A stretch of DNA of 39,406 nucleotides, from positions 1-39,406 of IMG/VR virus record IMGVR_UViG_3300033134_000007; one strand, 5' to 3'. The translations under genes were made by a program, and so were the position numbers. The stretch is from a virus. Position 1 is the first letter of the stretch. The number at the start of each line of letters is the position of its first letter. Below, one piece after another: positions 16,095-36,699 of this stretch. The notes beneath the pieces are model-generated. The model searched no databases. It saw only the letters and a list, made by a program, of their open reading frames with translations, and was not told the origin of the DNA.

Positions 16095-16146
16095 GCGCAA
16101 CCCCTGGCAGGCGGGATGCCTGCATGCAAGGTTGCTAGCATGCAAG
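16091..16146. repeat. GCATGCAA repeats upstream of parA (proximal pair)
   Basis: GCATGCAAG occurs at 16122-16130 and 16138-16146, 16 bp apart as in the distal pair. A degenerate copy (GCATGCGCAA) overlaps the parA start at 16091, 31 bp from the first, about two periods. Position and spacing fit an operator/centromere for the RHH protein, so parA transcription is probably autoregulated here. Confidence 0.6.
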
Positions 16147-16219
16147 CCTGGGAGCCTGCAATGGCATTGGCTGGCGGCTGTGCGGTCGGTGGCCTGGCGG
16201 TGTAGCCTGGCGGCGGCGG

Positions 16220-18002: not shown

Positions 18003-18980
18003 CTACGGCGCGGGGCCGGGCCATGGGGCGTCGTCGGGCACCGGATCCGGCTCGGCCTCGGCCACGGCGAGGGCGGCCAGGCGGTAGTTGATGCGGCTGT
18101 CGATCGCGGCGATGCGCTCGAGCGCCTGGCCGGCGGCGGCGGCGCGCAGCCGGGTCAGCCGCTCGGAGTGCTGCAGCGCGGCCAGCTGCTCGGTGGTTTC
18201 CGCGAGCTCAACCTCCTGGGTGATGCCGCTCAGCACCTCGGCCCAGGTCATGCCCTTGGCGCCGGACGGGGTTGGCGACTGGGGTGGCGGCTCGGCCGGG
18301 CGGGCGGGCTCGAGCGCGGCGGGGGGCTCGGCGTCGATCGTCAGGCCGCCGGCATCGACCGCCTGGCCCTCCATCTCCTCGGCGGTCGGGCCCTCGCTTT
18401 CCTCGGGGAACGCCGCGCGCAGGCTGGCCGCCTTGGCGACCTTGAGCAGCTGGCCACGCGGGCGGCGGGCCCACATGTCGTTGGGCACCTGGGTGCGGCC
18501 GATGCGGGCGTAGCTCTCCTCCCACCAGACCGGCTCGCAGTAGCTGCGCGCCTGGCCGCCGATCAACTTGTAGACCGTGACCGAGCACCATTCGGGATAC
18601 TCGACCTCGACCGTGGTTTCGCGCTCCTCGCCGCGCCGGCCGACCCGGCCGGTGAACCGCCGCCGCCTGAGCGGGCCCCAGGTCGGCGGGTCGAGCCCGG
18701 CCCACAGGCCGGTGCGGGAGGCCGTGGTCTGCAATTCGTTGATCCCCGGCCAGACGGTTTCCACCTCACGCCCGAGCGCGCTGTTCCAGACCGGCACGAT
18801 ATGCACCGGGCGGCGGAACGGATCCAGCTTGCGCGCCCGGCAGTAATCCAGCGCCAGCATCACCGCGCCCGCGGTGCGCGCCCCGGGCCAGATCGCCTCG
18901 GTGAGCACGCGCCATTGCTGCGCATCGACCGGCGCGCCGGGCGGCAGCGGCAGGCGCGGTGCGGCGATGACCTCGCTCAT
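18003..18980 (-). CDS. Bet/RecT-family single-strand annealing protein
   Basis: A 325-aa product read leftward from ATG 18980. Residues about 38-215 carry the phage Bet signature: AVMLALDYCRARKLDPFRRP, VWPGINELQTTASRTG, YPEWCSVTVYKLIGG, then NDMWARRPRGQLLKVAKAAS and LRAAFPEE. It anneals complementary single strands in recombination and in circularising or repairing replicating DNA. The C-terminal third is Pro/Ala-rich and then helical. It is coupled by ATGA to a Gp157-like gene. No exonuclease partner of lambda-exo type is seen nearby. Confidence 0.88.
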   Translation of the reverse strand: MSEVIAAPRLPLPPGAPVDAQQWRVLTEAIWPGARTAGAVMLALDYCRARKLDPFRRPVHIVPVWNSALGREVETVWPGINELQTTASRTGLWAGLDPPTWGPLRRRRFTGRVGRRGEERETTVEVEYPEWCSVTVYKLIGGQARSYCEPVWWEESYARIGRTQVPNDMWARRPRGQLLKVAKAASLRAAFPEESEGPTAEEMEGQAVDAGGLTIDAEPPAALEPARPAEPPPQSPTPSGAKGMTWAEVLSGITQEVELAETTEQLAALQHSERLTRLRAAAAGQALERIAAIDSRINYRLAALAVAEAEPDPVPDDAPWPGPAP

Positions 18981-19453
18981 GGGTGCGCCTCCACGCGCAG
19001 GTTCAGGGTCATCTCGTTGGGGGTGATGACCGAGACGCCGGGCACGTCCTCGCCGCGCTCGAGCGCCTCGCGGATCGCCTTGCGGTCGGGCTCCGGCTCG
19101 GGCCGGGTGAGGTATTGCGGCGGCACGCGCGCGGCGTCGTCCACGCTGAGGATCTTGCGCTTGCGCGAGAGGTAGGCCGAGAGGGTGCCGTCGGTGGTGT
19201 GCGTGCAGCCGGTTTCCAGCATCACCTCGGCCAGCAGCGCGCGGCACTGCCTGTTGGCCGCCTCGGCCGCCTTGGCCAGCGCCTCGATCGCCAGCGCCAG
19301 GTGCGCCGCGGCCTGCAGCGCCTGCACCAGGTCGGCCTGGCCGAGCGCGGCCTGGTGGCGCGCGGCGTAGGCCTCGCCGGCCTGCCAGATGTCGCGATAG
19401 AGCGCCCTGACGCCGCCCAGCAGCCGCTCGCGCGCCGCCGCCGCGCCGCTCAT
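18977..19453 (-). CDS. Gp157-like early protein
   Basis: A 158-aa product read leftward from ATG 19453. An N-terminal long helix region (LGQADLVQALQAAAHLALA) precedes LSAYLSRKRKILSVDD, then RVPPQYLTRP and PDRKAIREALERGEDVPGVS. That last pattern (a short charged strand, a P.EY segment, KKAI.EALK.GE.VPG) is the hallmark of the Siphovirus Gp157 family, commonly found beside phage annealases. Its role is unclear; a recombination accessory or host-nuclease function has been suggested for relatives. Confidence 0.75.
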   Translation of the reverse strand: MSGAAAARERLLGGVRALYRDIWQAGEAYAARHQAALGQADLVQALQAAAHLALAIEALAKAAEAANRQCRALLAEVMLETGCTHTTDGTLSAYLSRKRKILSVDDAARVPPQYLTRPEPEPDRKAIREALERGEDVPGVSVITPNEMTLNLRVEAHP

Positions 19454-19975: not shown

Positions 19976-20338
19976 CTACGCTACGTCTTGACGCGGCGAT
20001 GCGGAGCGATAGCCCTCTGCCAGCGCCAGAGCGGCCAGCAGCAGCGCTTGGACGCCTATCGGAGGTAGCTGCCCGGCAACGGCGATCAGTCGCTGCAGGG
20101 CGGGGTCGCTGACTGTCGTCAGGGTCGGGCCGGCGTCGATTTCCGGCATCAGGTCGGTCGGGGCCATTTGCAGGATGTCCGCGAGGCGGGCGCGGGTGGC
20201 GATGCTCGGCAGGCTCAGGTCGATCTCCCACTGCGCCACCGCGCCATGGCTGACGCCGAGCATGCGGGCGAGCTCGCGCTGGGAGATCTCCAGTTCGCGC
20301 CGGCGTTTTCTCAGGATTTGGCCGAGTCTGTGTGCCAC
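19976..20338 (-). CDS. XRE-family (CI-like) repressor
   Basis: A 120-aa product read leftward from GTG 20338, with GAGGGC upstream; a longer frame to 20413 is less likely. LGQILRKRRRELEISQRELA, then RMLGVSHGAVAQWEIDLSLPS and TRARLADILQMAPTDLM, is a textbook HTH_3 domain. The C-terminal part is short and helical, with no S24 peptidase, so it is not cleaved like lambda CI. With the divergent Cro/YdaS-like gene at 20458 it forms a genetic switch, which supports a temperate lifestyle. Confidence 0.85.
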   Translation of the reverse strand: MAHRLGQILRKRRRELEISQRELARMLGVSHGAVAQWEIDLSLPSIATRARLADILQMAPTDLMPEIDAGPTLTTVSDPALQRLIAVAGQLPPIGVQALLLAALALAEGYRSASPRQDVA

Positions 20339-20361
20339 GGTGCCCTCGTTGGTTGTCGCGC

Positions 20362-20378
20362 CGCTGCTTATAGCAGCG
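20362..20378. promoter_or_regulatory. Operator candidate in the repressor/Cro intergenic region
   Basis: CGCTGC-TTATA-GCAGCG is a perfect 6-bp-arm palindrome in the 119-bp space between the divergent repressor and Cro-like genes. A related half-site with CAGCGCT follows at about 20439. These are probable binding sites for the two regulators and overlap the expected promoters. Confidence 0.6.
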
Positions 20379-20457
20379 CTTCGTGTCGGATGACAAACGT
20401 CTGACCGGGTCATTTTTGCGCTGGCCAGCCTGGGTTAACAGCGCTAATCGAATCACG

Positions 20458-20682
20458 ATGCAGACCGCGGGCATGAGTTTGTTGCGCGCACAACGTGGGT
20501 TACTCGCGAAAGTAGCGCGGGAACTGCGGGTCACACGCGCAGCCGTCGCGGTATGGCAACGGGTGCCGGCCGAGCGGCTGCCGGCGGTCGAGGCGGCGTC
20601 AGGCATCCCGCGGCATCTGCTGCGCCCGGATATCTGCCTGCCCCCGAAACGATCATGCCGCTGCCGCGGACCGGGAGGCTGA
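20458..20682 (+). CDS. Cro/YdaS-like regulator
   Basis: A 74-aa product from ATG 20458; no clear ribosome-binding site, and ATG 20473 is an alternative. LRAQRGLLAKVARELRVTRA, then AVAVWQRVPAERLPAVEAASG and IPRHLLRPDI, match the YdaS/Cro family: short HTH, W..VP..R....E...G......LRP. Divergent from the CI-like gene, it should repress lysogenic functions and open the lytic early operon. It is followed 2 bases after its end by the nuclease gene. Confidence 0.8.
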   Translation: MQTAGMSLLRAQRGLLAKVARELRVTRAAVAVWQRVPAERLPAVEAASGIPRHLLRPDICLPPKRSCRCRGPGG

Positions 20683-20683
20683 C

Positions 20684-21094
20684 ATGGGCAAGCAATTTCG
20701 CCTGACGATGCCGGTGGTTCCCGAGCACTCGGTGCAGGCCCAGTTGTGCCGGATCCTGACGATGGAGCTCGCCCCGCCGGGCAAGTTGAGCCGCGACGGG
20801 GTGGTCTGGTACGCGATCGATCATGCCAATTACGCTGGCGAAATACCCGGCGTGCGGATTGCCCGAGGCATCGTCGCCGGGATCCTGGATATGTTCCTTT
20901 TGTGGAACGGGCACGCCTATTTCGTCGAGCTCAAGACGGAGGATGGCCGGCTGTCGCCGGAGCAGCAATCGGTCGCCGCGGCGGTGCTCGGCGGCGGCGG
21001 GCGGGTTGGCGTGGTGGCGACCGCCGAGCAGCTGCTGGCGGTGCTGGACAGCTGGGGGATCCCCCGGCGGCGGCGGGTGCGGGTGGCGGCGTGA
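20684..21094 (+). CDS. VRR-NUC family nuclease
   Basis: A 136-aa product from ATG 20684 with GGGAGG upstream. The PD-(D/E)xK core is clear: IVAGILDMFLLWNG (Asp), then HAYFVELKTEDGRLSPEQQ (E-x-K) and a helix with Gln. VRR-NUC proteins act as structure-specific nucleases, for example on flaps or Holliday-like junctions. As the second gene of the rightward early operon it probably works in replication or recombination with the leftward annealase. Length and residues look intact. Confidence 0.82.
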   Translation: MGKQFRLTMPVVPEHSVQAQLCRILTMELAPPGKLSRDGVVWYAIDHANYAGEIPGVRIARGIVAGILDMFLLWNGHAYFVELKTEDGRLSPEQQSVAAAVLGGGGRVGVVATAEQLLAVLDSWGIPRRRRVRVAA

Positions 21095-21108
21095 AAGGGG
21101 GGGAAGCA

Positions 21109-21738
21109 ATGACGACACTGAAGGACGCCTTTCTCGCCGCCGGTTTCCTCGCGCCGGGCGAGCGGCTGCGCGAGATCGCCATCAGGGCGATGAGCCAGCA
21201 CGCCACCAGCAATGAGGCTGCCATCGAGGCCGTGCTCAAGGCCGTGCGCCAGGATCTGGCGCTCACCTGGGCGCTGTTCGCGCCGTATGACGCCGTTGCT
21301 GTCAAGCGGCTGTTTGCCGAGGTGCGCCATGAGTTGCGCCAGGACGCCCGATCGCGCGACGAGGGCCGCGCCGTGCATGGAAACCAGCTGCCGGATGCCC
21401 AAAGCGCGCGTCAGGGAGGGGGCCAGCCATCACTTGCGGGCCACATAGCCCATGCCCCCTCCCGCCCCATCACGCTGGAGCAGCGCGCGGCGAAGGCGCG
21501 GACGGCCGAGGTGATCCGCATGTCGCTGCTCGATACCGTCACCATCGACGGCCGGCCGATCGGTGACTGGCAGGCGGGCGCGGCGCGGGCCTGGGCGCGG
21601 GCCACCGGGCGGCATGTGCGCTGGGTCGAGATGATGACCGCGAACATGCCACCCGACGATCCGATCCGGCGCTGGCTGACGCCCGAAGACGCGCAATCGC
21701 TGTGGCAGCGCGCCGCGCAGGAGGGCGACAATGCGTAA
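21109..21738 (+). CDS. Hypothetical early protein, 209 aa
   Basis: From ATG 21109 with GGGGGGGAA just upstream. N-terminal helices (TLKDAFLAAGFLAPGERL, AIEAVLKAVRQDLALTWALF) precede a Gly/Gln-rich linker. The C-terminal half includes RTAEVIRMSLLDTVTIDGRP, WARATGRHVRWVEMMTANMP and RRWLTPEDAQSLWQRA. The last part resembles small phage proteins near replication genes, but I cannot name a family. Its 3' end carries the AGGAGG ribosome-binding site and overlaps the start of the Tas-like gene by 8 bases. Confidence 0.65.
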   Translation: MTTLKDAFLAAGFLAPGERLREIAIRAMSQHATSNEAAIEAVLKAVRQDLALTWALFAPYDAVAVKRLFAEVRHELRQDARSRDEGRAVHGNQLPDAQSARQGGGQPSLAGHIAHAPSRPITLEQRAAKARTAEVIRMSLLDTVTIDGRPIGDWQAGAARAWARATGRHVRWVEMMTANMPPDDPIRRWLTPEDAQSLWQRAAQEGDNA

Positions 21739-22939
21739 AAAGAAATCACCCATCGCGGGCCCTGGTGCTGCTGAAAACCATGTGGAGGCTGCCCGCGAGG
21801 AGACGACGGCCAAGTCGGCCCTGGAAACCTTTTATGCCTTGCCGTCGTCTCCACCACCCATCGCGGGCCAGTCAGGGATTGAAAGCCACTCTACTCCTGC
21901 CCGCGCGGAGACGACGGCCGATGTTCCGGTGGAATCCAAGTCCGTGGTGCCGTCGTCTCCACCAACAGAGATCGCGGGCCAACATGAGCATGAAAACCTC
22001 TCAGCCACTGCCCGCGAGGCGGAGGGGGCCATTGCTCGCGTGAAAACCACCGGACACTTTCCCCCTCCGCCGCCCGCCATCCTCGAACTGATCGACCTGC
22101 AGCGGCAGCGCGTCCACGCCATCAAAGCGCAGTCCTTTGGCGACCGCACATGCGATTCCTACGTCGCGCATTTCCTCGGCTACCACAGCGACATGCCCGA
22201 GGCCGAGGGCAAGGCGCTGTTCAGGCAGGCCGCCGAGATGCGCGCCGGCGTCGAGAAGCAGTTGAAAAAGGTCCAGAAAGCCGGGGGCCTCGTGCAACGT
22301 GAAGACCAGGCTGAGGTTGCCCCCGGCCCGGGCGGAGAGGGCCACATTTCCCGAGAAAGCCACATCATGCCTGCCCTCTCCGTCTGCCGCCCGATCATCC
22401 TCAACACCATCCTGGCCCGCGCCGGCTGGGATGCGCTGCGCAAGACCGCCGAGGCGCGCATGTGCGCGATCGCCGGGCAGTTTCCGGTGTGGCCCCGCGC
22501 GGCCGAGGTCGCGGGCTTTGCCGAGCTTGGGCTGGCCGTCATCGTGGCCGAGGCCGGTAACGATCTCACCGCCTATCCGCACGCCATGCACCTGTGGAAG
22601 CGGCTCGGCCTCGCCCCCTACAAGGGCCGGGCCATGTCGCAATGGCATGGCAAGGATTTGACCGTCGAGGAGTGGTCCGCCCAGGGTTACAACGGCAACC
22701 GGCTGGGCCGGCTGGTGGGCGTGGTCGGCACGCCGCTGTTCATGATGAAGGACAGGCCCGGGGGCTACGGCGCGGTGTATGCCGCGCGGCGGGCGCATAC
22801 CGCGCTGACGCACCCGGATTGGACCAAGGCGCACAGCGACAATGACGCGCGGCGGATCATGCTCAAGCAGCTCGTCGCTGACCTGTGGGGGTGGTGGCGG
22901 GACTGCGCGCGGGCGGCCGATGTCAGCCAGGCTGCGTGA
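21731..22939 (+). CDS. Tas-like protein (IS110/Nop-type domain) containing its own guide-like stem-loop arrays
   Basis: The ORF is 402 aa from ATG 21731 with a strong AGGAGG 6 nt upstream. The C-terminal 150 residues (AAEVAGFAELGLAVIVAEAG, then YPHAMHLWKRLGLAPY, ARRAHTALTHPDWTKAH, and ARRIMLKQLVADLWGWWRD) resemble the C-terminal domain of IS110-type transposases and phage proteins often annotated as transposases. No RuvC or HNH motif is seen, so it would be a nuclease-free TasA-like member of the TIGR-Tas class. The N-terminal helical part starts near ILELIDLQRQRVHAIK (residue about 117). Residues 8-114 and about 184-218 are encoded by the stem-loop blocks and are low-complexity. GTG 22040 is a possible internal start, inside the sixth loop. 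RNA-guided DNA binding is inferred from family knowledge. Confidence 0.72.
   Translation: MRKKKSPIAGPGAAENHVEAAREETTAKSALETFYALPSSPPPIAGQSGIESHSTPARAETTADVPVESKSVVPSSPPTEIAGQHEHENLSATAREAEGAIARVKTTGHFPPPPPAILELIDLQRQRVHAIKAQSFGDRTCDSYVAHFLGYHSDMPEAEGKALFRQAAEMRAGVEKQLKKVQKAGGLVQREDQAEVAPGPGGEGHISRESHIMPALSVCRPIILNTILARAGWDALRKTAEARMCAIAGQFPVWPRAAEVAGFAELGLAVIVAEAGNDLTAYPHAMHLWKRLGLAPYKGRAMSQWHGKDLTVEEWSAQGYNGNRLGRLVGVVGTPLFMMKDRPGGYGAVYAARRAHTALTHPDWTKAHSDNDARRIMLKQLVADLWGWWRDCARAADVSQAA
21753..22071 (+). ncRNA. TIGR-like array, block 1: six stem-loops with 30-nt guide-like loops
   Basis: Six consecutive hairpins. Stem arms: 21753-21760/21791-21798; 21799-21810/21841-21852; 21861-21868/21899-21906 (7 of 8 pairs); 21907-21918/21949-21960; 21972-21979/22010-22017; 22018-22028/22061-22071. 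Two stem types alternate (TCGCGGGC and GGAGACGACGGC); the sixth has a different stem (GGCGGAGGGGG) that is still complementary. Each loop is 30 nt, except that the sixth gains 2 nt from a final mismatched pair. All are 12 nt, core, 11 nt. Cores in order: GAAAACC, GGAAACC, GAAAGCC, GGAATCC, GAAAACC, GAAAACC. Left halves start with C and end with T; right halves end with T. Halves are otherwise unrelated, like guides. Three stem bases each side plus the loop give 36 nt, the length reported for tigRNAs. Confidence 0.82.
22280..22384 (+). ncRNA. TIGR-like array, block 2: two further stem-loops inside the tas-like gene
   Basis: Unit 7: arms 22280-22288/22319-22327 (GCCGGGGGC, perfect), loop 22289-22318, core GAAGACC at 22301. 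Unit 8: arms 22331-22342/22373-22384 (GGCGGAGAGGGC with one G-T wobble), loop 22343-22372, core GAAAGCC at 22355. Both loops are exactly 30 nt with the 12-7-11 layout of block 1, although both stems are new sequences. They encode the linker between the N-terminal helices and the Nop/IS110-like domain. Two more units obeying the same rule, 200 nt away and with new but complementary stems, argue against chance. Confidence 0.8.
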
Positions 22940-23035
22940 TGTACGCCCGGTGCGAGCGGCCCGGCTGGGACGCCTGGGGAGCCGAGTCGTCATGACCCCC
23001 CTGGACGGGACTCGGGTTTTCGGCCCAAATGCCAA

Positions 23036-23063
23036 GCGCCCGGCTGCGGAAACAGCCGGGCGC
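23036..23063. other. Strong GC hairpin downstream of the tas-like gene
   Basis: Perfect 11-bp stem (23036-23046 with 23053-23063, GCGCCCGGCTG) with a 6-nt loop CGGAAA. No T run follows, so it is not a standard terminator; it could be an RNA-stabilising 3' structure. The 225-bp gap 22940-23164 holds this, the imperfect hairpin at 23083-23140 and no convincing gene. Confidence 0.6.
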
Positions 23064-23082
23064 CTGGAACATATACAACCGC

Positions 23083-23140
23083 CGAGGCGGGGTATCGGAA
23101 TACATAGGGTAATGTGCGTGCCCCTTGTATCCGAGCCTCG
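23083..23140. other. Long imperfect inverted repeat upstream of the gene at 23165
   Basis: CGAGGC (23083-23088) pairs with GCCTCG (23135-23140). Inside, GGAATACATAGGG (23097-23109) is nearly complementary to the segment CCCCTTGTATCC (23121-23132). It is AT-richer than its surroundings and could hold a promoter, an attenuator or a protein-binding site for the replication genes that follow. Confidence 0.45.
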
Positions 23141-23164
23141 TCCGGCAGGCAAGGGGGTGCGCGC

Positions 23165-23578
23165 ATGACGCATGGGTTATCCCGCCAACCGGATCTGTAT
23201 GCATTGCCGGCCTGCCTCGCCCGGCCGCTCGCGCGGGGGATGCTGAGCGAGGCGCAGGCGGCGGCGGCGCTGCTGCTCGCGGCCTACCGCGGGCCCGGGC
23301 CGGCCGAGGACATCGGCGCGGTCTATCGGATCCTGCAGCACCTGCTGGGGCAGCATTGCGCGCGGGAGACGCTCCGGCGCGACCTGGCGCGCCAGGCGAT
23401 CCGCCAGCGGCTGCGCCCGATGCTGGCGCGGCGCGCGGCGTGGGTTGACCTGATGGACGCCGCGCTGGCGGCCGATGCCGGCGGGGCGCTGACCGAGCCG
23501 GAGGTCATCGCCGCGGTGCGCGAAGCGGCCTACTGGGCGCTGCCGCAGGCGCCGCGGGCGGTGCGTCATGTCCGGTAG
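23165..23578 (+). CDS. Hypothetical protein next to the helicase
   Basis: A 137-aa product from ATG 23165. It is Ala/Leu/Arg-rich and helical: SEAQAAAALLLAAYRGPG, AVYRILQHLLGQHCARETL and LTEPEVIAAVREAAYWALP. No family is recognised. It overlaps the helicase start by 11 bases, so it may be a loader or replication accessory; this is inferred only from position. Confidence 0.55.
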   Translation: MTHGLSRQPDLYALPACLARPLARGMLSEAQAAAALLLAAYRGPGPAEDIGAVYRILQHLLGQHCARETLRRDLARQAIRQRLRPMLARRAAWVDLMDAALAADAGGALTEPEVIAAVREAAYWALPQAPRAVRHVR

Positions 23579-24836
23579 CGACGATGACCCGATCCGGGCG
23601 GCCTACGAGAGCGGGGGGTTTCGCCCGCGGCTGGTGCATACCAACGAGGGCTCGCGGCCCGGCGGGGGCGGCGGTGGGGGCGGCGGCAACGACCCGGGCG
23701 CGTTCCGCCTCGAGCCCTGGCTGCTCAAGGACGAGAAGGAAATCCGCCACCGCCCGTGGATCTACGGGTTTCAGCTGATCCGCGGGTTCCTCTCGCTGCT
23801 GATCGCGCCGGGCGGCACCGGCAAATCCAGCTATGTGCTGGCGACATTGCTCTCGATCGCCACCAAGCGGCCGTTGCTCGGCATCGATCCGTGGGTGCGC
23901 TGCAATGTCGGGCTGCTCAACCTCGAGGATCCGCACGAGGAAGCCGACCGGCGGCTGCTGGCGCTGAAACGGCGCTACGGCATCAGCGAGCGCGAGGTGC
24001 AGGGGCGGCTGTACATCACCCCCGATGACCTCTCGGTCAAGGTCGCTGCCTTGGGGGATGATGGGTATTCCGTCGTCTATCCCGACCGGCAGGGGATCAT
24101 CGACTGGTGCCGGGAATACAACATCGGCGTGCTGGCGGTGGATCCGTTCGCGGAAAGCCACGCGCTCGACGAGAACAGCAACCGGGCGATGATCTCGGTC
24201 GCGGCCAGCTGGCGGCAGATCGCCCGCGCCGCCAACCTCGCCGTGCTCGGCAGCTACCATGTGCGCAAGGGCATTGCCGACAGCGTCGAGGCGGCCCGCG
24301 GCGCGAAGGCGACCACTGACTCGGCCCGGGTCGGGCTGATGCTGCAGCATATGACCGAGGAGCAGGCGCGGGCGCTCGAGATCGACCCCGACGACCGCAA
24401 ACAGTATCTAAGCTTGATCAATGACAAGCCCAACATGTCCGCGCGCGACGGCCAGGTGTCGTGGTTCAAGTTGGGATCCGTGGAGCTCGACAATGCCGAT
24501 GAAACCTATCCGTTCGGTGACAGCGTGGGCGTCATCGAGCCCTGGCAGCCCGAGTCGCTGTGGGCCCGCTTCACGCCGCGCCAGCTTAACGACGCGCTCG
24601 ATGTCATCGCCGCCGGCCCCGGCGACGGGCAGCGCTACAGCCCGGCCAAGCAGGGTGTGCGATGGGTGGGTAATGTTCTTGTTGAGCATCTTTCTGTCAC
24701 CGAACTGGCAGCAAAGACCATGCTGGCCAAATGGTTCAAAGAGGGTGTTCTCGTTCGCCAATCGTATCGCGACAAAGCCGAGGGCAAGGACCGCGCCGGC
24801 GTGGGGGTGGTCGATGCTAACCGCCCGACTGAGTGA
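23568..24836 (+). CDS. RepA/AAA_25-type replicative DNA helicase
   Basis: A 422-aa product from ATG 23568. After a Gly-rich linker (residues about 34-45) comes a RecA-fold core: IRGFLSLLIAPGGTGKSSYV is Walker A near residue 80, NVGLLNLEDPHEEADRR follows, Walker B is IGVLAVDPFAE, and then VLGSYHVRKG is a sensor-like strand. This matches hexameric RSF1010 RepA-like helicases found in phages and plasmids. The C-terminal part looks like a small winged-helix (VTELAAKTMLAKWFKEGVLV). It lies immediately upstream of the iteron cluster, so it is the likely replication initiator helicase of this episome. Confidence 0.85.
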   Translation: MSGSDDDPIRAAYESGGFRPRLVHTNEGSRPGGGGGGGGGNDPGAFRLEPWLLKDEKEIRHRPWIYGFQLIRGFLSLLIAPGGTGKSSYVLATLLSIATKRPLLGIDPWVRCNVGLLNLEDPHEEADRRLLALKRRYGISEREVQGRLYITPDDLSVKVAALGDDGYSVVYPDRQGIIDWCREYNIGVLAVDPFAESHALDENSNRAMISVAASWRQIARAANLAVLGSYHVRKGIADSVEAARGAKATTDSARVGLMLQHMTEEQARALEIDPDDRKQYLSLINDKPNMSARDGQVSWFKLGSVELDNADETYPFGDSVGVIEPWQPESLWARFTPRQLNDALDVIAAGPGDGQRYSPAKQGVRWVGNVLVEHLSVTELAAKTMLAKWFKEGVLVRQSYRDKAEGKDRAGVGVVDANRPTE

Positions 24837-24851
24837 TCGTTGCAATACCGT

Positions 24852-25049
24852 AGACTGGCGGAAGAATGGCGGATTTTGCATCCGGCGATCGGCCCGACGA
24901 GGGCGGTTTCCGCCTGTCTGGGGGGGTTTCTAAAGAAACCCCCCCCAGACTGGCGGATATCCCACCCGTCCGAAGTCGGAACTGGCGGATAGACTGGCGG
25001 AAAACTGGCGGGAGACTGGCGGAACAGACTGGCGGAACAGACTGGCGGA
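24852..25049. repeat. Iteron cluster, candidate replication origin
   Basis: Nine direct copies of AGACTGGCGGA or near matches start at 24852, 24863, 24947, 24979, 24991, 25002, 25013, 25026 and 25039; the last seven cluster with 11-32 bp steps. An inverted, one-mismatch copy is at 24909-24919. Between them lies a strong hairpin (24916-24950). Iterons directly downstream of a replicative helicase gene are typical of plasmid and phage origins. A short open frame over this region (24866-25105) simply translates the repeats and is not called. Confidence 0.78.
24916..24950. other. Long hairpin inside the iteron region
   Basis: GTCT-G7-TTTC pairs with GAAA-C8-AGAC around a TAAA loop, a 15-bp stem with one bulged C. 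The AGAC arms are the first bases of flanking iterons, one direct and one inverted. A nearby small hairpin, GGCGG-TTT-CCGCC, lies at 24903-24915. This could be a strand-initiation or primase-entry structure; no T tract follows, so a terminator is less likely. Confidence 0.65.
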
Positions 25050-25101
25050 TGGCGGAAAGGGGTCCGGTGATGTGGCAGGTGTTGGCGGGAGGCGTGGCGA
25101 G

Positions 25102-25377: not shown

Positions 25378-25584
25378 ATGACCTGGCGGGGGATGACCTG
25401 GCGGGGGGATGAATTGACAGGGGTTGGGCGCCACCAGGCGCGGGATGCCGAGATCGTCCGGCGCTATGCGGCCGGCGGCGTCACGCTCAGCCAGTTGGGC
25501 CGCGCGTATGGCAAGACTGACGCGCGGATCTGGCAAATAATCAACAAGGCGCGACGACAGCAGCAGAGGGCCCACGATGCTTGA
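25378..25584 (+). CDS. Small helix-turn-helix protein
   Basis: A 68-aa frame from ATG 25378. ATG 25393 is also possible because the start lies in a tandem 15-bp repeat (GGATGACCTGGCGGG twice), and TTG 25414 is a third option. The core ARDAEIVRRYAAGGVTLSQL, then GRAYGKTDARIWQIINKARR, is a sigma-region-4 / resolvase-like HTH. It overlaps the NusG-like gene by 8 bases, so the two are probably co-expressed regulators of late transcription. Confidence 0.65.
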   Translation: MTWRGMTWRGDELTGVGRHQARDAEIVRRYAAGGVTLSQLGRAYGKTDARIWQIINKARRQQQRAHDA

Positions 25585-26164
25585 CGAAAACGCGAGTGCG
25601 GGCCTAGCAGAGTCGCGCGGGACGATGCGCCAGCCGGACGATACGGCGCACCGGCCCTGCGGACGCCTGCAATGGCACGTCGTTTCCTCCCTCCCCAACA
25701 AGCAATTTGCCGCCGAGGCCTCGCTCGCGGCGGATGGCTGGCGGGTTTACCACCCGCTGCACCTGCATCGCGTGCGCGGCCATGGGCTGCGGATTGTGAG
25801 CCTGTTTCCTGGCTATTTGTTCGTGCTGTTCGATGTCACCGGTAGCGATTGGCCGCGGATCTGTCGCGCCCGCGGTGTCGCTGCGCTGCTCGGCCCGCCC
25901 GGCCGTCCCTCGACAGTCCCGGCCGGTCTGGTCGAGCAGTTGCTCGCACGCACGAGCGCCCGGCGCGTGGTAGACGACCCGCTCGCCCCCGACGGGCACG
26001 TCTACCTACGCCCGGGCGCCTCTGTGGCGGTGCTGCAGGGCCCCCTGGCCGGGCTGGAGGGGATTTGCCGGCTGTCGGCGCCGGAGCGCGTGCAGGTGCT
26101 GTTCCAGCTGCTGGGCCGCGAGCTCGCGGTGGAACTGCTGCCGCAGCAGGTTATGGCGATTTAG
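25577..26164 (+). CDS. NusG/RfaH-like transcription elongation or antitermination factor
   Basis: A 195-aa product from ATG 25577. Residues about 30-120 form an NGN domain: RLQWHVVSSLPNKQFAAEASL, WRVYHPLHLHRVRGHGLR, VSLFPGYLFVLFDVTGSDW and ICRARGVAALLGPPG. A KOW-like C-terminal part has GASVAVLQGPLAGLEG and an HVYLRPG strand. NusG paralogs bind RNA polymerase and suppress pausing and termination, often operon-specifically. Placed immediately before the terminase and the very long virion operon, it is a natural late-gene antiterminator. TAG ends it; readthrough would reach TAA after 13 codons. Confidence 0.82.
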   Translation: MLDENASAGLAESRGTMRQPDDTAHRPCGRLQWHVVSSLPNKQFAAEASLAADGWRVYHPLHLHRVRGHGLRIVSLFPGYLFVLFDVTGSDWPRICRARGVAALLGPPGRPSTVPAGLVEQLLARTSARRVVDDPLAPDGHVYLRPGASVAVLQGPLAGLEGICRLSAPERVQVLFQLLGRELAVELLPQQVMAI

Positions 26165-26504: not shown

Positions 26505-27803
26505 ACGCTCGAGCAGATCATCACGCTGCCGTTCTGTCCGCGCCCGTGGCAGCGCGGGCTGATCGACGACCCGGCGCCGCGCATCGTCGCCGTGGTGCAT
26601 CGCCGGGCCGGGAAATCCACCGCGCTGATGTGGCGCGGGCTGCGCCGGGCGTTGCTCGAGCCGCAGGCGCTGCCGCGGGTGGTGCATGTGCTGCCCTATG
26701 GGGTGATGTGGCAGCGCACCGGGCTTTGGGACCAGGCCACGCGCGCGGCCGAGGCGATCCCCGGGGCCGAGGTGCGCCGCAGCGAGCTCTCGATCCGGCT
26801 GCCCAATGGCGGCGTCTACCAGTGCGGCGGGTGCGACAATCCCGACAGCTGGCGCGGCGGCTATGCCGACGAGGTGGTGATCGACGAGTACGACGACACG
26901 CCGGCGAGCCTGGTGCCGCTGGTGATCGAGCCGATGTTGGCCGACCGCCAGGGCACCTTGGTGCGCAGCGGCACGCCCAAGGGCAAGGGGTTGCTGCAGG
27001 CGGCGTATGACCGGGCACGCACCGCGGCCGGGTATTCCAGCTACCTGCTGACCTGGCGCGACACCGGCGCGCTCGATGCCGCGGCGATCGCCCGGCTGCG
27101 CCAGGAGATGAGCAATGAAGAGTTCGCCCAGGAGCTCGAGTGCAGCTTCGAGGCGCCCAATAGTGGAAGTTACTACGGCGCAATGATGCAGGACGCCGAG
27201 CACGAGGGCCGCATCACCGCGGTGCCGCACGACCCGGCGCTCAGGGTTTGGACCGCCTGGGATCTCGGGATCGACGACAGCACCGCGATCTGGTGCCTGC
27301 AGGTGAGCCCGGCCGGGCAGTGGCGGCTGATCGACTATCTCGAGGACAGCGGCACCGCGCTCGAGCACTATGTGCGGGCGCTGCGGGCCCGGCCGTATGC
27401 GTGGCAGCAGCATATCCTGCCGCACGACGCCGCGGTGCGCGAGCTCGGCTCCGGCCGGACCCGGCGCGAGACCCTGCACGGGCTGGGGCTGGTGCCGAGC
27501 CGGGTGCTGGAGGCCTCGGCGGTGGCCGACGGCATCAACGCGGTGCGCCAGGTGCTGCCCCGGGCGTGGTTCGACGCCACGCGCTGCGCCAAGGGGATCC
27601 AGGCGCTGCGGCACTACCGGCGGGAGTGGAACGAGGCGGCGCAGACCTGGCGCTCGAGCCCGGTGCATGACCACGCCAGCCATGGGGCCGACGCGATGCG
27701 GTATCTGGCGCTCGGCGTGCGCGAGCCGCGCGAGGCCCGCGCGCCGCTGCCGGCCCGCGCCACCGGCCTGCTGGCCCAGCCGCAGGGCTGGATGGGGCTG
27801 TGA
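26505..27803 (+). CDS. Terminase large subunit (packaging ATPase/nuclease), non-standard start
   Basis: Homology begins right after the TAG of the small subunit: PFCPRPWQRGLIDD is the usual N-terminal adenine-binding motif before Walker A HRRAGKST (about residues 32-39). VVIDEYDD is Walker B. The C-terminal nuclease has TAWDLGIDDSTAIWCL and HGADAMRYL. The first ATG/GTG/TTG start in frame is GTG 26592, which would delete the conserved N-terminus and leave only 2 residues before the P-loop. ACG 26505 has AGGAG 6 nt upstream and is the likeliest start, perhaps a mutated ATG. The frame is the same as the small subunit, so a TAG readthrough fusion is the alternative. Product about 432 aa. Confidence 0.85.
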   Translation, partial: TLEQIITLPFCPRPWQRGLIDDPAPRIVAVVHRRAGKSTALMWRGLRRALLEPQALPRVVHVLPYGVMWQRTGLWDQATRAAEAIPGAEVRRSELSIRLPNGGVYQCGGCDNPDSWRGGYADEVVIDEYDDTPASLVPLVIEPMLADRQGTLVRSGTPKGKGLLQAAYDRARTAAGYSSYLLTWRDTGALDAAAIARLRQEMSNEEFAQELECSFEAPNSGSYYGAMMQDAEHEGRITAVPHDPALRVWTAWDLGIDDSTAIWCLQVSPAGQWRLIDYLEDSGTALEHYVRALRARPYAWQQHILPHDAAVRELGSGRTRRETLHGLGLVPSRVLEASAVADGINAVRQVLPRAWFDATRCAKGIQALRHYRREWNEAAQTWRSSPVHDHASHGADAMRYLALGVREPREARAPLPARATGLLAQPQGWMGL

Positions 27804-28089: not shown

Positions 28090-28312
28090 GCCGCTCGTCG
28101 TGCTCGGCCCGCCCGAGGCCGTCGACGTTGAGACGCTGTATCGCGCGCTCAGGATCATGACGGATTTCGCCGCCGATGGCGGGGTGATCGTCGGCGCGCT
28201 GACCTCGGCGCTGGCCGACTATCTGCGCGCCGCCCCGGCCGAGGCGCGCGGCCACCTGGCCGACCAGGTGATCGAGCATCTGCGCAACGACGTGCGCAAG
28301 AGCCTGCAGTGA
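28061..28312 (+). CDS. Small hypothetical head-region protein
   Basis: An 83-aa product from ATG 28061 (or 28064). Helical: VETLYRALRIMTDFAADGG, VGALTSALADYLRAAP and ADQVIEHLRNDVRKSL. Its stop overlaps the portal ATG (TGATG). No family is recognised; possibly an assembly accessory. Confidence 0.55.
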   Translation: MMRQNSRLPEPLVVLGPPEAVDVETLYRALRIMTDFAADGGVIVGALTSALADYLRAAPAEARGHLADQVIEHLRNDVRKSLQ

Positions 28313-30489
28313 TGGCTGAAAGCGACGAGGACATCATCCGCGAGGCGCAGGAGCGGTTCGACCGCGCGCACGATTACCAGGCGTTCGCGCATGAAAATTT
28401 CCGCCGCGACATGAAGTTTGCGAACGGCGACGACGTCAACCGCTACCAATGGGACGAGGAGATTGTCGGCTCGCGCGTTGGCCGGCCCTGCCTGACGATC
28501 AACAAGTGCCGGATCCACAATCTGCAGGTGATCAACGACGCCAGACAGAATCAGGCGCAGATCAGAATCAATCCGGTCGCGGACGAAGCCACCTACGAGA
28601 GCGCGCAGATATTCGAGGGCGTGGTGCGCCACATCGAATATGTCAGCAATGCCGCGGCGGCCTACACGACGGCGACCTATAACCAGGTGATGGGCGGCAT
28701 CGGCTATTGGCGGGTGATGACTGACTATATCGACGAGGAAACGTTAGACCAGGACATTTTTATTCGCCGCGTGCCGAACCCGCTCGACGTCTTTCTCGAC
28801 CCCGACATCCAGCAGTATGACGGCTCGGACGCCCGGTTCGGCTTCGTGTTCTATGAGATGGAGCGGAAAGACTTTGAGCGGCGCTATCCGCGCGCCGACG
28901 AGCCCGACCGGGTGGTGGGCTCGGGCCCGCTCGGCAACCGCGGGCATTTTCAATCCGACGACAAGCATGTGCGCCTGGTGGAATACTACCGCCGCGGCGA
29001 GCGCCGGGACCGGCTGCTCGAGCTCACCGACGGCACCGTGCTGCACGCCGCCGACCTCGCGCCCGAGGTGCTGCGCCAGGTCAAGGCGCGCGACCTGATC
29101 CGGCGCGAGCGCACGGTCAGCTACCCCGAGGTGGAATGGTTTTTGATCGCGGACAACGACCGCATTCTCGACCGCAAGCCCTGGCCCGGGCGCTACATCC
29201 CGATTGTCAGGCTGCCGTGCGAGGAGATCATCACCGACAAACGGCTCGACTGGGTGAGCCATACAAGACACTTGCGCGATGCGCAGCGTCTATACAATTG
29301 GTATAGCTCGAGCGCCGCCGAGTTCGTTGCGTTACAGAGCAAGGCGCCATTCATCGGCACCGCCGAGGCGATCGGGCCGTTCCAGGAGAAATGGGAACGC
29401 GCGAATATCGAAAATCCGTCGGTGCTGCTCTACCAGGGGCTCGACGAGACCGGCCAGCCGCAGCCGCCGCCGCAGCGCGCCCAGCCGCCGGCCATGGCCC
29501 AGGCTTACATGGAAGGCCTGCAGATCGCGCAGAACGAAATGATGTTGGCGAGCGGGCAATACCAGGCGGTGATGGGCGCGCCCTCCAACGAGACCTCGGG
29601 CAAAGCGATCAACGCCCGCCAGCGCCAGGGTGACAATGCCACGTACCATGTGATCGACCACCTGGCGGGCGCGATCCGCTTCACCGGGCGCCTTTTGGTC
29701 GATCTGGTGCCGAAAGTATACAACGCCCGGCGCGTGCTGCTGATCGTCAACGAGGCCGGCGAGGAGAGCCAGGTGCATGTGGATCCCGAGGCACCGCAGG
29801 CGCACCAGGTGGTGCCGGATCCGACCGCGCAGCCGCAGCCGGTGAGCCCGCAGGGCCAGGCGGATCCCGACCAGGCCAAAGAGGACGCGGTCATTACGAT
29901 CTGGAACCCGAACGTCGGCCGTTTCGCGGTCGTCGCGGACGTCGGGCCCAGCTACATGACCCGCCGGCAGGAGGCATTCAACGCCTTCTCGCAATTGATG
30001 GCCAGCAACGGCGCGGCGTTCCAGGTGCTCGGTGATTTCTGGGCCAAGAACGCCGATTTCCCGGGCGCCGACGAGCTCGCGGAGCGGCTCAAGCAGGGGC
30101 TGCCGGCGCAATACAAGGGCCAGGATCCGCAGGTGATGCAGCTGCAGCAGGCGCTGCAGCAGACCCAGGCGCACGCCCAGCAGGTGCTCGGCCAGGCCGA
30201 CGCCGAGGTGGCCGCGCTGAAGGCGCAGGTGGCCGCGCTGCAGGAAGACCTGAAGGACAAGACCTACGATAGTGAAACGAAACGGCTCGACACCGTCGGC
30301 AAGATCGACCCCGACAGCCTCAAGCTGATCGTGCGCGAGCTCGTCAGCCAGATGATCGGCATGCCGGCGCTGCCGGTCATGGGCGCGCATGCCGCGGCCG
30401 AGGCGGCGATGACCCCGCCCGGGCCGGCGCCTGACAGCCAGGGTGGCGGCCAGGTGAACGGCCAGGGTGGCGGCCAGGCGCTGCAATGA
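28312..30489 (+). CDS. Portal protein, P22 gp1-like
   Basis: A 725-aa product from ATG 28312 (TGATG overlap), close to P22 gp1 in length. The N-terminal ERFDRAHDYQAFAHENFRRD, then GRPCLTINKCRIHNLQVIND, GIGYWRVMTDYIDEE and NPLDVFLDPDIQ are characteristic of the P22-portal family. NEMMLASGQYQAVMGAPSNE is the conserved middle block. The C-terminus has a long Gln-rich barrel helix (VMQLQQALQQTQAHAQQVLG). It forms the dodecameric DNA gate at the capsid vertex and meets gp4- and gp10-like proteins. The last 20 residues are Gly/Gln repeats (QGGGQVNGQGGGQ). Confidence 0.92.
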   Translation: MAESDEDIIREAQERFDRAHDYQAFAHENFRRDMKFANGDDVNRYQWDEEIVGSRVGRPCLTINKCRIHNLQVINDARQNQAQIRINPVADEATYESAQIFEGVVRHIEYVSNAAAAYTTATYNQVMGGIGYWRVMTDYIDEETLDQDIFIRRVPNPLDVFLDPDIQQYDGSDARFGFVFYEMERKDFERRYPRADEPDRVVGSGPLGNRGHFQSDDKHVRLVEYYRRGERRDRLLELTDGTVLHAADLAPEVLRQVKARDLIRRERTVSYPEVEWFLIADNDRILDRKPWPGRYIPIVRLPCEEIITDKRLDWVSHTRHLRDAQRLYNWYSSSAAEFVALQSKAPFIGTAEAIGPFQEKWERANIENPSVLLYQGLDETGQPQPPPQRAQPPAMAQAYMEGLQIAQNEMMLASGQYQAVMGAPSNETSGKAINARQRQGDNATYHVIDHLAGAIRFTGRLLVDLVPKVYNARRVLLIVNEAGEESQVHVDPEAPQAHQVVPDPTAQPQPVSPQGQADPDQAKEDAVITIWNPNVGRFAVVADVGPSYMTRRQEAFNAFSQLMASNGAAFQVLGDFWAKNADFPGADELAERLKQGLPAQYKGQDPQVMQLQQALQQTQAHAQQVLGQADAEVAALKAQVAALQEDLKDKTYDSETKRLDTVGKIDPDSLKLIVRELVSQMIGMPALPVMGAHAAAEAAMTPPGPAPDSQGGGQVNGQGGGQALQ

Positions 30490-34035: not shown

Positions 34036-35265
34036 ATGGCAAATTCCCTTATCACCCCGACCCTGGTCATTCGTCGGGCGATCGAGTTGTTTCGCAACCA
34101 GAACCCCTTCCTGCAGATGATGGACCGGCAGTGGCAGGATGAGTTCGCCAACCCCTCGGTGGCCGGGCAGAAACCCGGCTCGACGATCCAGATACGTTTG
34201 CCGAACGACTACGTGATCCGCACCGGGCCGACCGCGGTGCCGCAGTCGACCACCGAGGTGACCACCGGCCTGACGGTCGCCAAGCAGGCCGGCGTCGATA
34301 TCTCGTTTTCCATGGTGGACCGCACCCTGACGATGCAGGACTATTCGCGCCGCATCATCGAGCCCGCGGTCAACACCATCGTCGGCGCCATCGCATCCGA
34401 TGTGATGACCGGCGCGGAGGCGATCCCCAACCTTATCCATAACGTTGACGGATCAAACAACACGATCAGCCCGACCCTGACCACCTGGGCGCAGGCCGGG
34501 GCGATGCTCGACAAGCTCTCGACCCCGCGTGGGCAGCGCAACGCCATTCTCGACCCGATCACCATGGCGCGCACAGTTGGTTCTTTCAGCGGATTGTTCA
34601 ACCAGCAATCCAAAGTCGGGGATCAATACGAGACAGCTATGATCAAGAAAGACGTGTTGGGCATGGACTGGGCGCAGGATCCGACCGTGCTGATGCATCA
34701 CACGCCCGCCTATGGCACGATGCCGACGGTGGCCGGCGCCAACCAGACCGGCTCCTCGATCGCCACCAGCGCGGTCGGCGGGTCCGGCCTGGCGCAGGGC
34801 GATATCGTTACATTTGCGGGCGTTTACAGCGTCAACCGCGTCACCAAGGCCTCGACCGGACAACTGGCGCAGTTCGCGCTGACGGCGAACGTCCCGGCCG
34901 GGGCGACCGCGCTGCCGATCTATCCCGCGCTGGTGCCGGCCTCGGGCGGCAACCCGGTGGCCTATGAGACCGTGACCGCATCGCCGGCCGCCGGGGCGGC
35001 GATCGTCTGCCTGACCAACGCGAATGAGTGGTATCGGAAGAATTTCATCTTTCATCCGCTCGCCGCGACATTGGCTTTGGTGCCAATGGAAATGCCGACG
35101 CGCGGCGTCATGGAGGCCTACCGCGAGAGCTACCAGGGTGTGTCCATCCGGCTGATAACGTTTTACGATGGTATCAATGACCAGACCATCACCCGGCTTG
35201 ACGTGCTCTACGGCTATAAATGGGTGCGGCCCGAATGGGCGGTGGTCGTTGCTGACGCGGCATAA
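34036..35265 (+). CDS. Major capsid (coat) protein, P22 gp5-like
   Basis: A 409-aa product from ATG 34036. TPTLVIRRAIELFRNQNPFL, QMMDRQWQDEFANPSVAGQK, PGSTIQIRLPNDYVIRTGPT and DISFSMVDRTLTMQDYSRRI are the hallmark N-terminal block of the P22 coat family (HK97 fold). VMTGAEAIPNLIHN follows, with an inserted middle (GDIVTFAGVYSVNRVTKAST). P22 gp5 is 430 aa. A dedicated insertion domain, as in P22, is likely around residues 225-335. Major structural shell component. Confidence 0.9.
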   Translation: MANSLITPTLVIRRAIELFRNQNPFLQMMDRQWQDEFANPSVAGQKPGSTIQIRLPNDYVIRTGPTAVPQSTTEVTTGLTVAKQAGVDISFSMVDRTLTMQDYSRRIIEPAVNTIVGAIASDVMTGAEAIPNLIHNVDGSNNTISPTLTTWAQAGAMLDKLSTPRGQRNAILDPITMARTVGSFSGLFNQQSKVGDQYETAMIKKDVLGMDWAQDPTVLMHHTPAYGTMPTVAGANQTGSSIATSAVGGSGLAQGDIVTFAGVYSVNRVTKASTGQLAQFALTANVPAGATALPIYPALVPASGGNPVAYETVTASPAAGAAIVCLTNANEWYRKNFIFHPLAATLALVPMEMPTRGVMEAYRESYQGVSIRLITFYDGINDQTITRLDVLYGYKWVRPEWAVVVADAA

Positions 35266-35477: not shown

Positions 35478-35926
35478 TGGCCAACAAGACCCCCGACACC
35501 GAGACCGCCCAGACCGTCCCGGGCGGCATCGACCCGCCGCCCGCGCCGCCGCCGCAGCCCGGCGAGCGGGTGCCCAACCCGGCCCAGCCCTATGCCAGCC
35601 TGGCGGTGCCGCAGCCGCAGGACAAGGCGGCGTTCGTCGCCCCGGGCACGGTCGCCTCGGGCTTCCCCAAGACGTTGTATCACCCGGTGCATGGCGGCAT
35701 TGAGCTCGCGGACCCGGCCGAGGAGGCCTCGCTGGTGCCGCGCACCGACTGGTTCAACACGCCGGAGGAGGCGGACGCGCACCGCACCTACACCGAGGCG
35801 CAACTGGCGGCGCACAAGACGCTGACTGCCAAGCTGCAGGCGCTGGAGGAGGCCGGCAAGGGGGTGGTGCATAACTCGGTGCAGGCGCACCAGAACCTGC
35901 TCGCCGGGCGCGCCGAGCCGCTGTAA
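35477..35926 (+). CDS. Head-region protein related to the previous one
   Basis: A 149-aa product from ATG 35477 (TAATG overlap). Pro-rich N-terminus; the middle SGFPKTLYHPVHGGIELADP and LVPRTDWFNTPEEAD shares the FPK.LYH motif with the preceding 66-aa protein, suggesting duplication. The C-terminal helix has LTAKLQALEEAGK. Its position fits a head accessory protein. Confidence 0.6.
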   Translation: MANKTPDTETAQTVPGGIDPPPAPPPQPGERVPNPAQPYASLAVPQPQDKAAFVAPGTVASGFPKTLYHPVHGGIELADPAEEASLVPRTDWFNTPEEADAHRTYTEAQLAAHKTLTAKLQALEEAGKGVVHNSVQAHQNLLAGRAEPL

Positions 35927-36699
35927 TGGCGATTGTCACGGCAGGCGACCTGGTGAGCGCCTGCCTGCGCACCGCCGGCATCCTCGGGGTCGGCCAGACG
36001 GCGCAGGCCGAGGACGCCAACACCGGGCTCGATCTGCTCAACGAGGTGATTGCCGGCTGGATGCGCGAGCGGCTGCTGTCCTGGCGCCTGGTCGAGGTGG
36101 TGGCGACCTCGACCGGCGCGCAGAGCTATCCGCTGACCGACCGCCCGGTGCGGCTGGCCTCGGCGTTCGCCCGGCTGCTGAGCGGCTATGCGACGAGCGG
36201 GGGCATCGTCACCGCGGGGCCGGTCGACTACCCGCTGCAGATCATGACAGGGCGGGAACAATATAACGAGATCATGGTGAAATCGCTGGGTACCTTCCCG
36301 GCCGCGGTGTTCCTCGACACGCTCTGGCCGGGCCCGGCCCAGGTCTATGTCTGGCCGGTGCCCCCGGCGGCCCAGTTCGAGCTGCACCTGGCCTATCCGC
36401 AGCAGCTGAGCCGTTACGCCGGCCTCACGACCCCGCTCGGCCTGCCGCCGGAATACCAGGAGCCGCTGCGGTATGCGCTGGCGCTCAAGCTGGCCATGGA
36501 TTACGGCATCGAACCAAATACCGCGCATGTCAACCGCCTGCGCGGCAGCCTCGCCCGGCTGCGCGCGGCCAACATCCAACTGGCTGACCTCGAGATGCCC
36601 GCCGCGCTGGTGCGGGGCGCGCAGGGTGGCGGCGGGATCTCCGGCCTGGTCGGCCCGGCGCAGAGCGTGATCGTGCTCGGCCAGACGGTGCTGGGGTAG
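35926..36699 (+). CDS. P22 gp4-like head completion/tail accessory factor
   Basis: A 257-aa product from ATG 35926 (TAATG). TAGDLVSACLRTAGILGVGQ, ANTGLDLLNEVIAGWMRERL and LVEVVATSTGAQSYPLTDRP are the gp4/Tail-4 family start, which forms the ring under the portal. AARGL-type helices and a PPEYQEPLRYALALKLAMDY region follow. P22 gp4 is 166 aa; the extra C-terminus here ends in Gly-rich turns. The usual P22 muramidase function of gp4 is not assured by the residues seen. TAG 36697 is in frame with the next gene. Confidence 0.82.
   Translation: MAIVTAGDLVSACLRTAGILGVGQTAQAEDANTGLDLLNEVIAGWMRERLLSWRLVEVVATSTGAQSYPLTDRPVRLASAFARLLSGYATSGGIVTAGPVDYPLQIMTGREQYNEIMVKSLGTFPAAVFLDTLWPGPAQVYVWPVPPAAQFELHLAYPQQLSRYAGLTTPLGLPPEYQEPLRYALALKLAMDYGIEPNTAHVNRLRGSLARLRAANIQLADLEMPAALVRGAQGGGGISGLVGPAQSVIVLGQTVLG

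Follow-up and report, generated by a model that had tools for sequence, protein, structure and literature searches.

How might a phage with a P22-like virion and no recognisable integrase persist in a dividing host? The question is raised by IMGVR_UViG_3300033134_000007, a virus record of IMG/VR considered here over all of its 39,406 bases (hereafter the window; 39,279 bp as a unit once the end repeat is removed), which carries the gene of a short ParA ATPase followed by that of a ribbon-helix-helix (RHH) protein. An earlier note had concluded from the gene set that this was a phage-plasmid. The ParA-RHH pair, the lack of an integrase and the position of the cassette do speak for such a lifestyle, whilst helicase with iterons and closure into a circle, to which the note had also appealed, turned out to carry no weight. 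The best single reading, which we hold with somewhat better than even confidence, is that of a temperate P22-type phage whose dormant form would be an extrachromosomal circle, that is, a phage-plasmid. For this we infer lysogeny, episomal replication, a partition function and an origin active in the dormant state from the genes: the XRE/Cro pair would maintain lysogeny, a RepA-type helicase would replicate the circle at an iteron array just downstream of its gene, ParA and its RHH partner would segregate the circle as a plasmid-type (type Ib-like) cassette, and this cassette, at the outer leftward end, would take the place of integration.

That the virion is P22-like, as had been claimed, was confirmed by the portal (509 bits with P22_portal) and coat protein (136.8 bits with P22_CoatProtein), to which PHROG matches add terminase, scaffold, adaptor, head closure and ejection proteins. 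The virion genes of a double-stranded DNA phage, one element in the definition of a phage-plasmid, are therefore present as portal, coat, terminase, adaptor, closure and ejection genes. The gp4-like adaptor scored 19 bits with PF11650 (P22 tail accessory factor gp4), for which the gathering score is 21, and better, at 35 bits, with SU10_adaptor.

Type Ib partition systems consist of a short ParA with a deviant Walker A motif and no N-terminal DNA-binding domain, a small RHH protein encoded downstream, and an operator/centromere containing repeats. The ParA of the window has the Walker A motif KGGVGKST at residues 10-17 and no N-terminal DNA-binding extension, and the small RHH gene begins 38 nucleotides after parA, an order which we take to be that of type Ib systems; as for the operator/centromere, CTTGCATGC occurs twice next to the genes (P 0.11). 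The Walker motif and many other conserved positions of the ParA alignment are kept in the window protein. Both genes are real, although they lie about 4 kb outside the 19976-25049 interval that the earlier note discussed.

The pair has a clear affinity to plasmids. Among 72,556 plasmid records the best named ParA matches were to Pleomorphomonas pSM30-2 (51% identity), Methylobacterium pNYY1_2 (50%) and Roseomonas (44%), and an RHH gene directly follows parA in pSM30-2, pNYY1_2 and Roseomonas gilardii plasmid 2; of 50,697 phage records 229 had a ParA match, the best among the 30 matches listed being 37% identical. A scan with the single ParA sequence gave four matches, none accompanied by a homologue of another window protein in the DNA compared. 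Partition genes homologous to those of plasmids, a further mark of phage-plasmids, are thus supplied by ParA and RHH, and judged from the sequence this pair is the sole element of the gene set that argues specifically for a plasmid.

Neither a tyrosine recombinase (PF00589) nor a serine recombinase (PF00239) was found in the record, in agreement with the earlier note, and the window is in this respect like phage-plasmids, which typically lack an integrase in the wording of the accessible text of PMC12977533. The accompanying claim that no transposition module is visible was not confirmed as such: there is one "integration and excision" match, phrog_4285, which belongs to a Tas/Nop-type protein and not to a transposase. 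An IS110-like transposase had been considered for this gene (21731-22939) and was rejected after a match to NF052498 was found.

What lies where an integrase might be expected can be judged from integrated relatives. Portal relatives at 30-43% identity were found at 18 loci in bacterial genomes, mostly of Acetobacteraceae, and the five opened have an integrase some 15-18 kb before the portal on the same contig. In all five of these Acetobacteraceae prophages the integrase gene closes the leftward early block on its outer side (in one it is read from the opposite strand), and in three it is adjoined by a tRNA gene (tRNA-Glu, tRNA-Ser and tRNA-Gly), which would suit an attachment site. In the window the leftward block starts with the repressor at 20.4 kb and reaches to about 14.0 kb, with ParA-RHH and small open reading frames (ORFs) at its outer end; parA lies 12.2 kb from the portal gene, compared with 15.5 kb between integrase and portal in Gluconacetobacter sacchari. 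Because the cassette sits close to the outer limit of the leftward genes, where the integrated relatives have their integrase, it appears to stand in for integration in the window.

Host genomes had been proposed as a place to look for an integrated relative; the five prophages opened, all with an integrase, are such relatives. As to virus records, PF00589 was found in none of the 26 formed by the window and 25 relatives. A further 71 records were collected, and the 46 of at least 15 kb, at portal identities of about 47-68%, were searched for integrase and ParA; five carry PF00589. Across the searched relatives with a portal identity of at least 55%, about half of which are fragments, none of 15 has PF00589 or ParA. 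PF00239 occurred in two of 36 records, in one as a 36-residue piece. An integrase in a close relative, which the earlier note had named as the observation that would speak against it, was therefore not encountered at this range; integrases do occur further out, in the five of 46 records and in integrated prophages at 37-38% portal identity. These integrase-bearing records and prophages are also what would be expected if the phage were temperate and integrated by an unrecognised route, through a recombinase of the host, an undescribed one or an integrase so diverged that PF00589 and PF00239 would miss it, the ParA being secondary; in keeping with this, the relative G061 has two tRNA genes and neither recombinase, and the Sodalis phage phiSG1 has ParA together with annotated integrases. 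We consider this explanation unlikely, as the only recombinase-like match in the window is the Nop/Tas protein without a catalytic-domain match, and neither a tRNA gene nor an attachment-site-like feature was found in the window.

The replication module was the second line of argument of the earlier note. A RepA-like helicase and iterons are present, which might provide the plasmid-type replication looked for in a phage-plasmid, though the same module occurs in phages with an integrase. Seven exact copies of ACTGGCGGA, all on the same strand, lie at 24854-25049, and the commonest 8-mer occurs eight times in the 266 nucleotides from 24837 to 25102, against a mean maximum of 1.7 in shuffled sequence. 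Homologues of RepA in the relatives G026, G022 and G035 each have an iteron family of their own (TCGGCAAA, TGTGGCGC and TTGTGGCG, respectively) within 300 bases downstream, around a hairpin, so that the place of the RepA-iteron unit is conserved and its sequence is not. Being in the same place with a different sequence among relatives, the array next to repA looks like a real origin. The iteron-hairpin-iteron layout directly 3' of repA is itself of note, the iteron sequence differing in most of these phages.

As evidence for a plasmid, helicase and iterons had nevertheless to be rejected. A scan with the single RepA sequence gave no matches, and the 80 related RepA loci came from an alignment scan; 46 records were searched for integrase and ParA, the 34 remaining loci being outside that search (three of them belong to G022, G026 and G035, which had already been searched). 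Integrase is present in nine of the 46, and four of these nine also have significant iterons, so that the module is not specific to plasmids. Iterons are commoner without an integrase (31 of 36 testable integrase-less RepA records against four of nine with integrase, Fisher 0.017; these counts do not include L235, whose segment is too short).

Of the control region, the CI-like repressor and Cro-like gene reported earlier are both there. The operators reported between them are not supported: within the 119 nucleotides separating the two genes there is no repeated 8-mer, and the best inverted repeat, with arms of seven nucleotides, does not rise above chance (P 0.075). As regards a temperate lifestyle, the window has the repressor and Cro-like pair, and no operator signal was found in the space between.

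Several observations weigh against the phage-plasmid reading. The closest relative found, G026 (3300037467_001543; 67% identical in the portal, 80% in coat, 55% in RecT and 45% in RepA, with an end repeat of the same length), shares the repressor region, VRR-NUC, RepA, a NusG-like gene, RecT and the virion with the window, and it has neither ParA nor an integrase. As G026 and most relatives lack both, absence of integrase is usual in the group with or without ParA. The phrog_164 ParA was found in one of the 26 records (the window), in one of the 46 further records (G061) and in none of the 46 RepA records, hence in two of 116 distinct records, two records being common to both lists of 46; G061 was set aside as a second ParA-bearing relative, since its ParA lies beyond tRNA-Ser and tRNA-Arg genes and possibly in host flank. 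The ParA itself scores 152.2 bits over residues 3-202 with NF041546 (ParA_partition), whose cut-off is 180. No centromere could be established upstream of parA, the longest direct repeat there being nine nucleotides and not significant; at that position the plasmid homologues have repeats too, which differ from those of the window. Nor is the ParA-RHH pair exclusive to ordinary plasmids, because IMG/VR contigs classed as viral carry it too (ParA up to 49% identical, with a matching RHH gene close behind at at least 20 of 80 loci). No toxin-antitoxin pair was identified in the window, and the XRE repressor has no Pfam match to S24 or another C-terminal repressor peptidase domain. Turning to replication, besides the integrase-bearing records with RepA and iterons, the association of iterons with integrase absence loses significance when records of at least 35 kb are taken alone (13 of 16 integrase-less against four of eight, Fisher 0.17), and in the prophage integrated in G. 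sacchari no iterons were found, either in the 600 bases after the gene of its RepA-like helicase or elsewhere in 20 kb.

A rival explanation is a virulent or pseudolysogenic phage from an integrase-less P22-like group, in which ParA-RHH is an accessory acquisition from a plasmid, RepA and the iterons are used in lytic replication alone, and the XRE/Cro pair sets the timing of the early genes. In its favour, integrase and ParA are both missing from most related records, G026 shares the control and replication genes yet lacks ParA, RepA with iterons is found in integrating phages too, and the repressor is short. On the other hand, ParA still has its Walker motif and, in plasmid order, its RHH partner, where loss would be expected of a pair acquired to no purpose; the divergence of repressor and Cro is typical of temperate phages; and the same virion module occurs in prophages that are integrated and hence temperate. 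We regard this as a rather unlikely explanation and prefer the phage-plasmid.

Closure into a circle, the remaining argument of the earlier note, is correct as far as the repeat goes: comparison of the ends of the record gave an exact repeat of 127 bp and no longer. An assembler run at k=127 leaves an overlap of 127 bp for any circular or circularly permuted (headful) DNA, and for that reason the repeat is neutral as to a plasmid state, was rejected as evidence for one and does not show it. A chimeric or misassembled record, with a piece of plasmid joined to a phage genome, would explain why ParA-RHH is missing from all close relatives examined. This is very improbable: the G+C content is about 70% across the record and stays within about 63-75% from 13 to 18 kb, phage genes flank the cassette on both sides, the circle closes exactly and other viral records carry the same pair.

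The earlier note regarded a P22-like virion with a type Ib partition system as a new combination, and this is too strong, since comparable combinations exist in phiSG1/pSOG3 and in record G150. The Sodalis element phiSG1/pSOG3 (NC_007902), pSOG3 being extrachromosomal and of phage origin according to the accessible parts of PMC3091646 and PMC8579659, is circular and has P22-like portal, coat, gp4-, gp10- and needle-type genes, ParA and a replication initiator; it differs in being enterobacterial, 52 kb in length and also equipped with annotated integrases, its ParA is 27% identical to that of the window, and the ORF after its ParA has no Pfam match. G150 (loci L301 and L372), a virus record of 71.9 kb, has a ParA of 37% identity with a directly following, overlapping RHH gene and a P22-like portal (profile E 1.5e-89, 28% identity); PF00589 was not found in it. 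A P22-type group is not named among phage-plasmids in the accessible text of PMC11652158 or PMC12977533, the literature covered lying mostly outside subscription journals.

The closest parallel to a replaced integrase is offered by cluster A mycobacteriophages such as RedRock, Miko and Rachaly: about 20% of the cluster, according to the accessible text of PMC7157519, carry parABS where the integration cassette would otherwise be, and colinear with it, and some have a RepA-like initiator. They are actinobacterial and have an unrelated virion, and their extrachromosomal prophages, as that text has it, were shown experimentally. Zymomonas pZM36 (CP023680) is, by contrast, an alphaproteobacterial circle with phage structural genes, ParA with an adjacent Arc-type RHH gene and no annotated integrase, its structural genes being of the contractile-tail (P2/Mu) type and its ParA 30% identical. 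Methylobacterium radiotolerans pNYY1_2 and Roseomonas gilardii plasmid 2 have parA followed by a homologous RHH gene (ParA 44-50%); pNYY1_2 has no annotated phage structural gene, and the Roseomonas plasmid was compared over 8.6 kb. The glacial phage-plasmids (Bellas 2015, PMC4490671) are, in the portions accessible, circular environmental phages of 37-38 kb with ParA and/or ParB and, in two scaffolds, no listed integrase; they differ by the toxin-antitoxin genes listed there. Two further candidates were dismissed as precedents: E. coli NZ_CP146567, a P22-like genome in which no ParA is annotated in the 37,967 bases viewed, and Arsenophonus paNv_CH9, which carries an integrase. The former (locus L045, pB1.H1.1.c7) is itself curious in that a P22-like phage genome has been deposited as a circular plasmid of 39.9 kb. 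Likewise, Rhodoplanes serenus plasmid 1 (NZ_LR026982, locus L192) was deposited as a plasmid and has tail, capsid, portal, terminase, RepA-like ATPase, NusG-like and VRR-NUC genes; it is probably a phage-plasmid itself. Alignment A1 was made without locus L024, as there are stop codons in its match range.

Between the control region and repA the window carries what seems to be a TIGR-Tas system with its guides inside genes. The TasA-like protein scores 49.2 bits with NF052498, under the curated cut-off of 100; all five homologues match this model too, and all six aligned members do so at E 0.001 or better. Its structure model (mean pLDDT, the predicted local distance difference test, 58.6), for which Foldseek placed TasR/TasH chains at ranks 2, 3 and 19 (E 0.2-0.9), gives weak backing to this identity. 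The architecture described in the accessible text of PMC12045711 is of stem-loop TIGR arrays with two short spacers framed by UG/CC boxes, lying upstream or downstream of tas, and none is described there inside a gene. The units of the window conform to it in the order stem, C, ten bases, TG, four bases, CC, ten bases, T, stem, and lie in the genes at 21109-21738 and 21731-22939. Seven strict units (stem of at least 6) are on the plus strand and none on the other, and an eighth, at 22018-22071, has a slightly longer loop. The homologous loci L365, L366, L367, L368 and L370 have 5, 7, 10, 8 and 5 strict units, and L369, cut at a contig end, has one; the background is two in 11.19 million positions on both strands of the other loci compared (tas loci left out, together with L001, L213, L224 and L232, which hold copies of them). 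In all six loci the tas frame runs without a stop across the units ahead of the conserved domain, whilst both other forward frames have at least one stop each, and a similar basic N-terminus precedes the guide units in the tas ORFs. Folding of the segment 21745-22080 is better than that of shuffled sequences by 5.2 standard deviations, and the unit at 22280-22327 maps to a stretch that is disordered in the low-confidence structure model.

A search for targets in the DNA compared gave three matches with up to two mismatches, against about five estimated by chance; that one of them, with 17 of 18 bases, falls in a Roseomonas plasmid parA is a curiosity only. As TasR caused plasmid loss in an E. 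coli assay (accessible text of PMC12045711), a role of the TasA system in competition between replicons is thinkable; it is speculation, as TasA has no nuclease. The wider proposal that in a P22-like lineage a plasmid-derived ParA-RHH replaced the integrase/attachment module and so turned the prophage into a plasmid, and that in-frame TasA guides are used against competing replicons, is thus doubtful when taken as a whole.

The features of the window are collected in the table below. As to the late genes, the terminase ORF begins nearly at its Walker A motif (26504-26592), the homologue in G026 being about 30 residues longer ahead of the motif. A NusG-like gene sits between the replication and terminase genes, and several relatives have one too. 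At 36703-37668 there is a tail fibre with matches to collagen-like proteins and a 9-base periodicity of the DNA. The VRR_NUC score of the nuclease, 19.3 bits, is under its cut-off.

Table. Features of the window, in order of position
Feature	Position	Strand	Basis
Head closure Hc3 (gp10-like)	573..1796	+	phrog_578 5.8e-97
parB-like RHH partner, 85 residues	15160..15417	-	Antitox_RHH 5.3e-9; directly downstream of parA
parA, short ParA ATPase, 212 residues	15456..16094	-	phrog_164 4.1e-35; AAA_31 3.6e-12; 51% to Pleomorphomonas plasmid ParA
Candidate par operator/centromere: two CTTGCATGC copies and short palindromes	16095..16170	-	repeats not significant
RecT/Bet single-strand annealing protein	18003..18977	-	RecT 1.4e-12; phrog_2449 2.2e-53; bet_lambda 1.7e-23
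Gp157/Mu Gam-like protein	18977..19453	-	Sipho_Gp157 4.3e-14
XRE (CI-like) repressor	19976..20413, likely start 20338	-	HTH_3 2.7e-10
Cro/YdaS-like divergent regulator	20458..20682	+	YdaS_toxin 3.8e-8
VRR-NUC-like nuclease	20684..21094	+	phrog_93 endonuclease 8.9e-11; VRR_NUC
Dispersed TIGR stem-loop guide units within coding sequence	21414..22327	+	7 strict and 1 variant
TasA-like Nop-domain protein, ORF in frame through guide units	21731..22939	+	NF052498 TIGR_Tas 6e-13
RepA-type hexameric-helicase homologue (replication)	23568..24836	+	AAA_25 5.2e-30; 44-46% to G026, G022 and G035 homologues
Candidate origin: 7 ACTGGCGGA iterons around a G7TTTC-TAAA-GAAAC7 hairpin	24854..25049	+	
NusG-like antiterminator	25577..26164	+	NusG 4.3e-10; phrog_6386 5.7e-15
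Terminase large subunit, putative start	26592..27803	+	Terminase_6N 6.1e-6; phrog_2 2.7e-21
P22-type portal	28309..30489	+	P22_portal 2.3e-152
P22-type coat protein	34036..35265	+	P22_CoatProtein 1.1e-39
Head-tail adaptor (gp4/SU10 adaptor type)	35926..36699	+	phrog_637 1.2e-10; SU10_adaptor 2.5e-8
Copy of window 1-127	39280..39406	.	127 bp identical

For the recognition of phage-plasmids in metagenomes, helicase, iterons and a circular contig together are an unsafe signature, and it is the partition genes that are informative. The TasA system may be a candidate tool for replicon competition and raises the question of whether translated genes can encode guide RNAs. If the phage-plasmid reading is true, the swap from integration to partition known in mycobacteriophages would also have occurred in P22-type phages of alphaproteobacteria, the cassette swapped in being of the kind found on ordinary plasmids, and the window would provide a compact 39-kb replicon in which to study how a phage passes from inheritance with the chromosome to inheritance as a plasmid.

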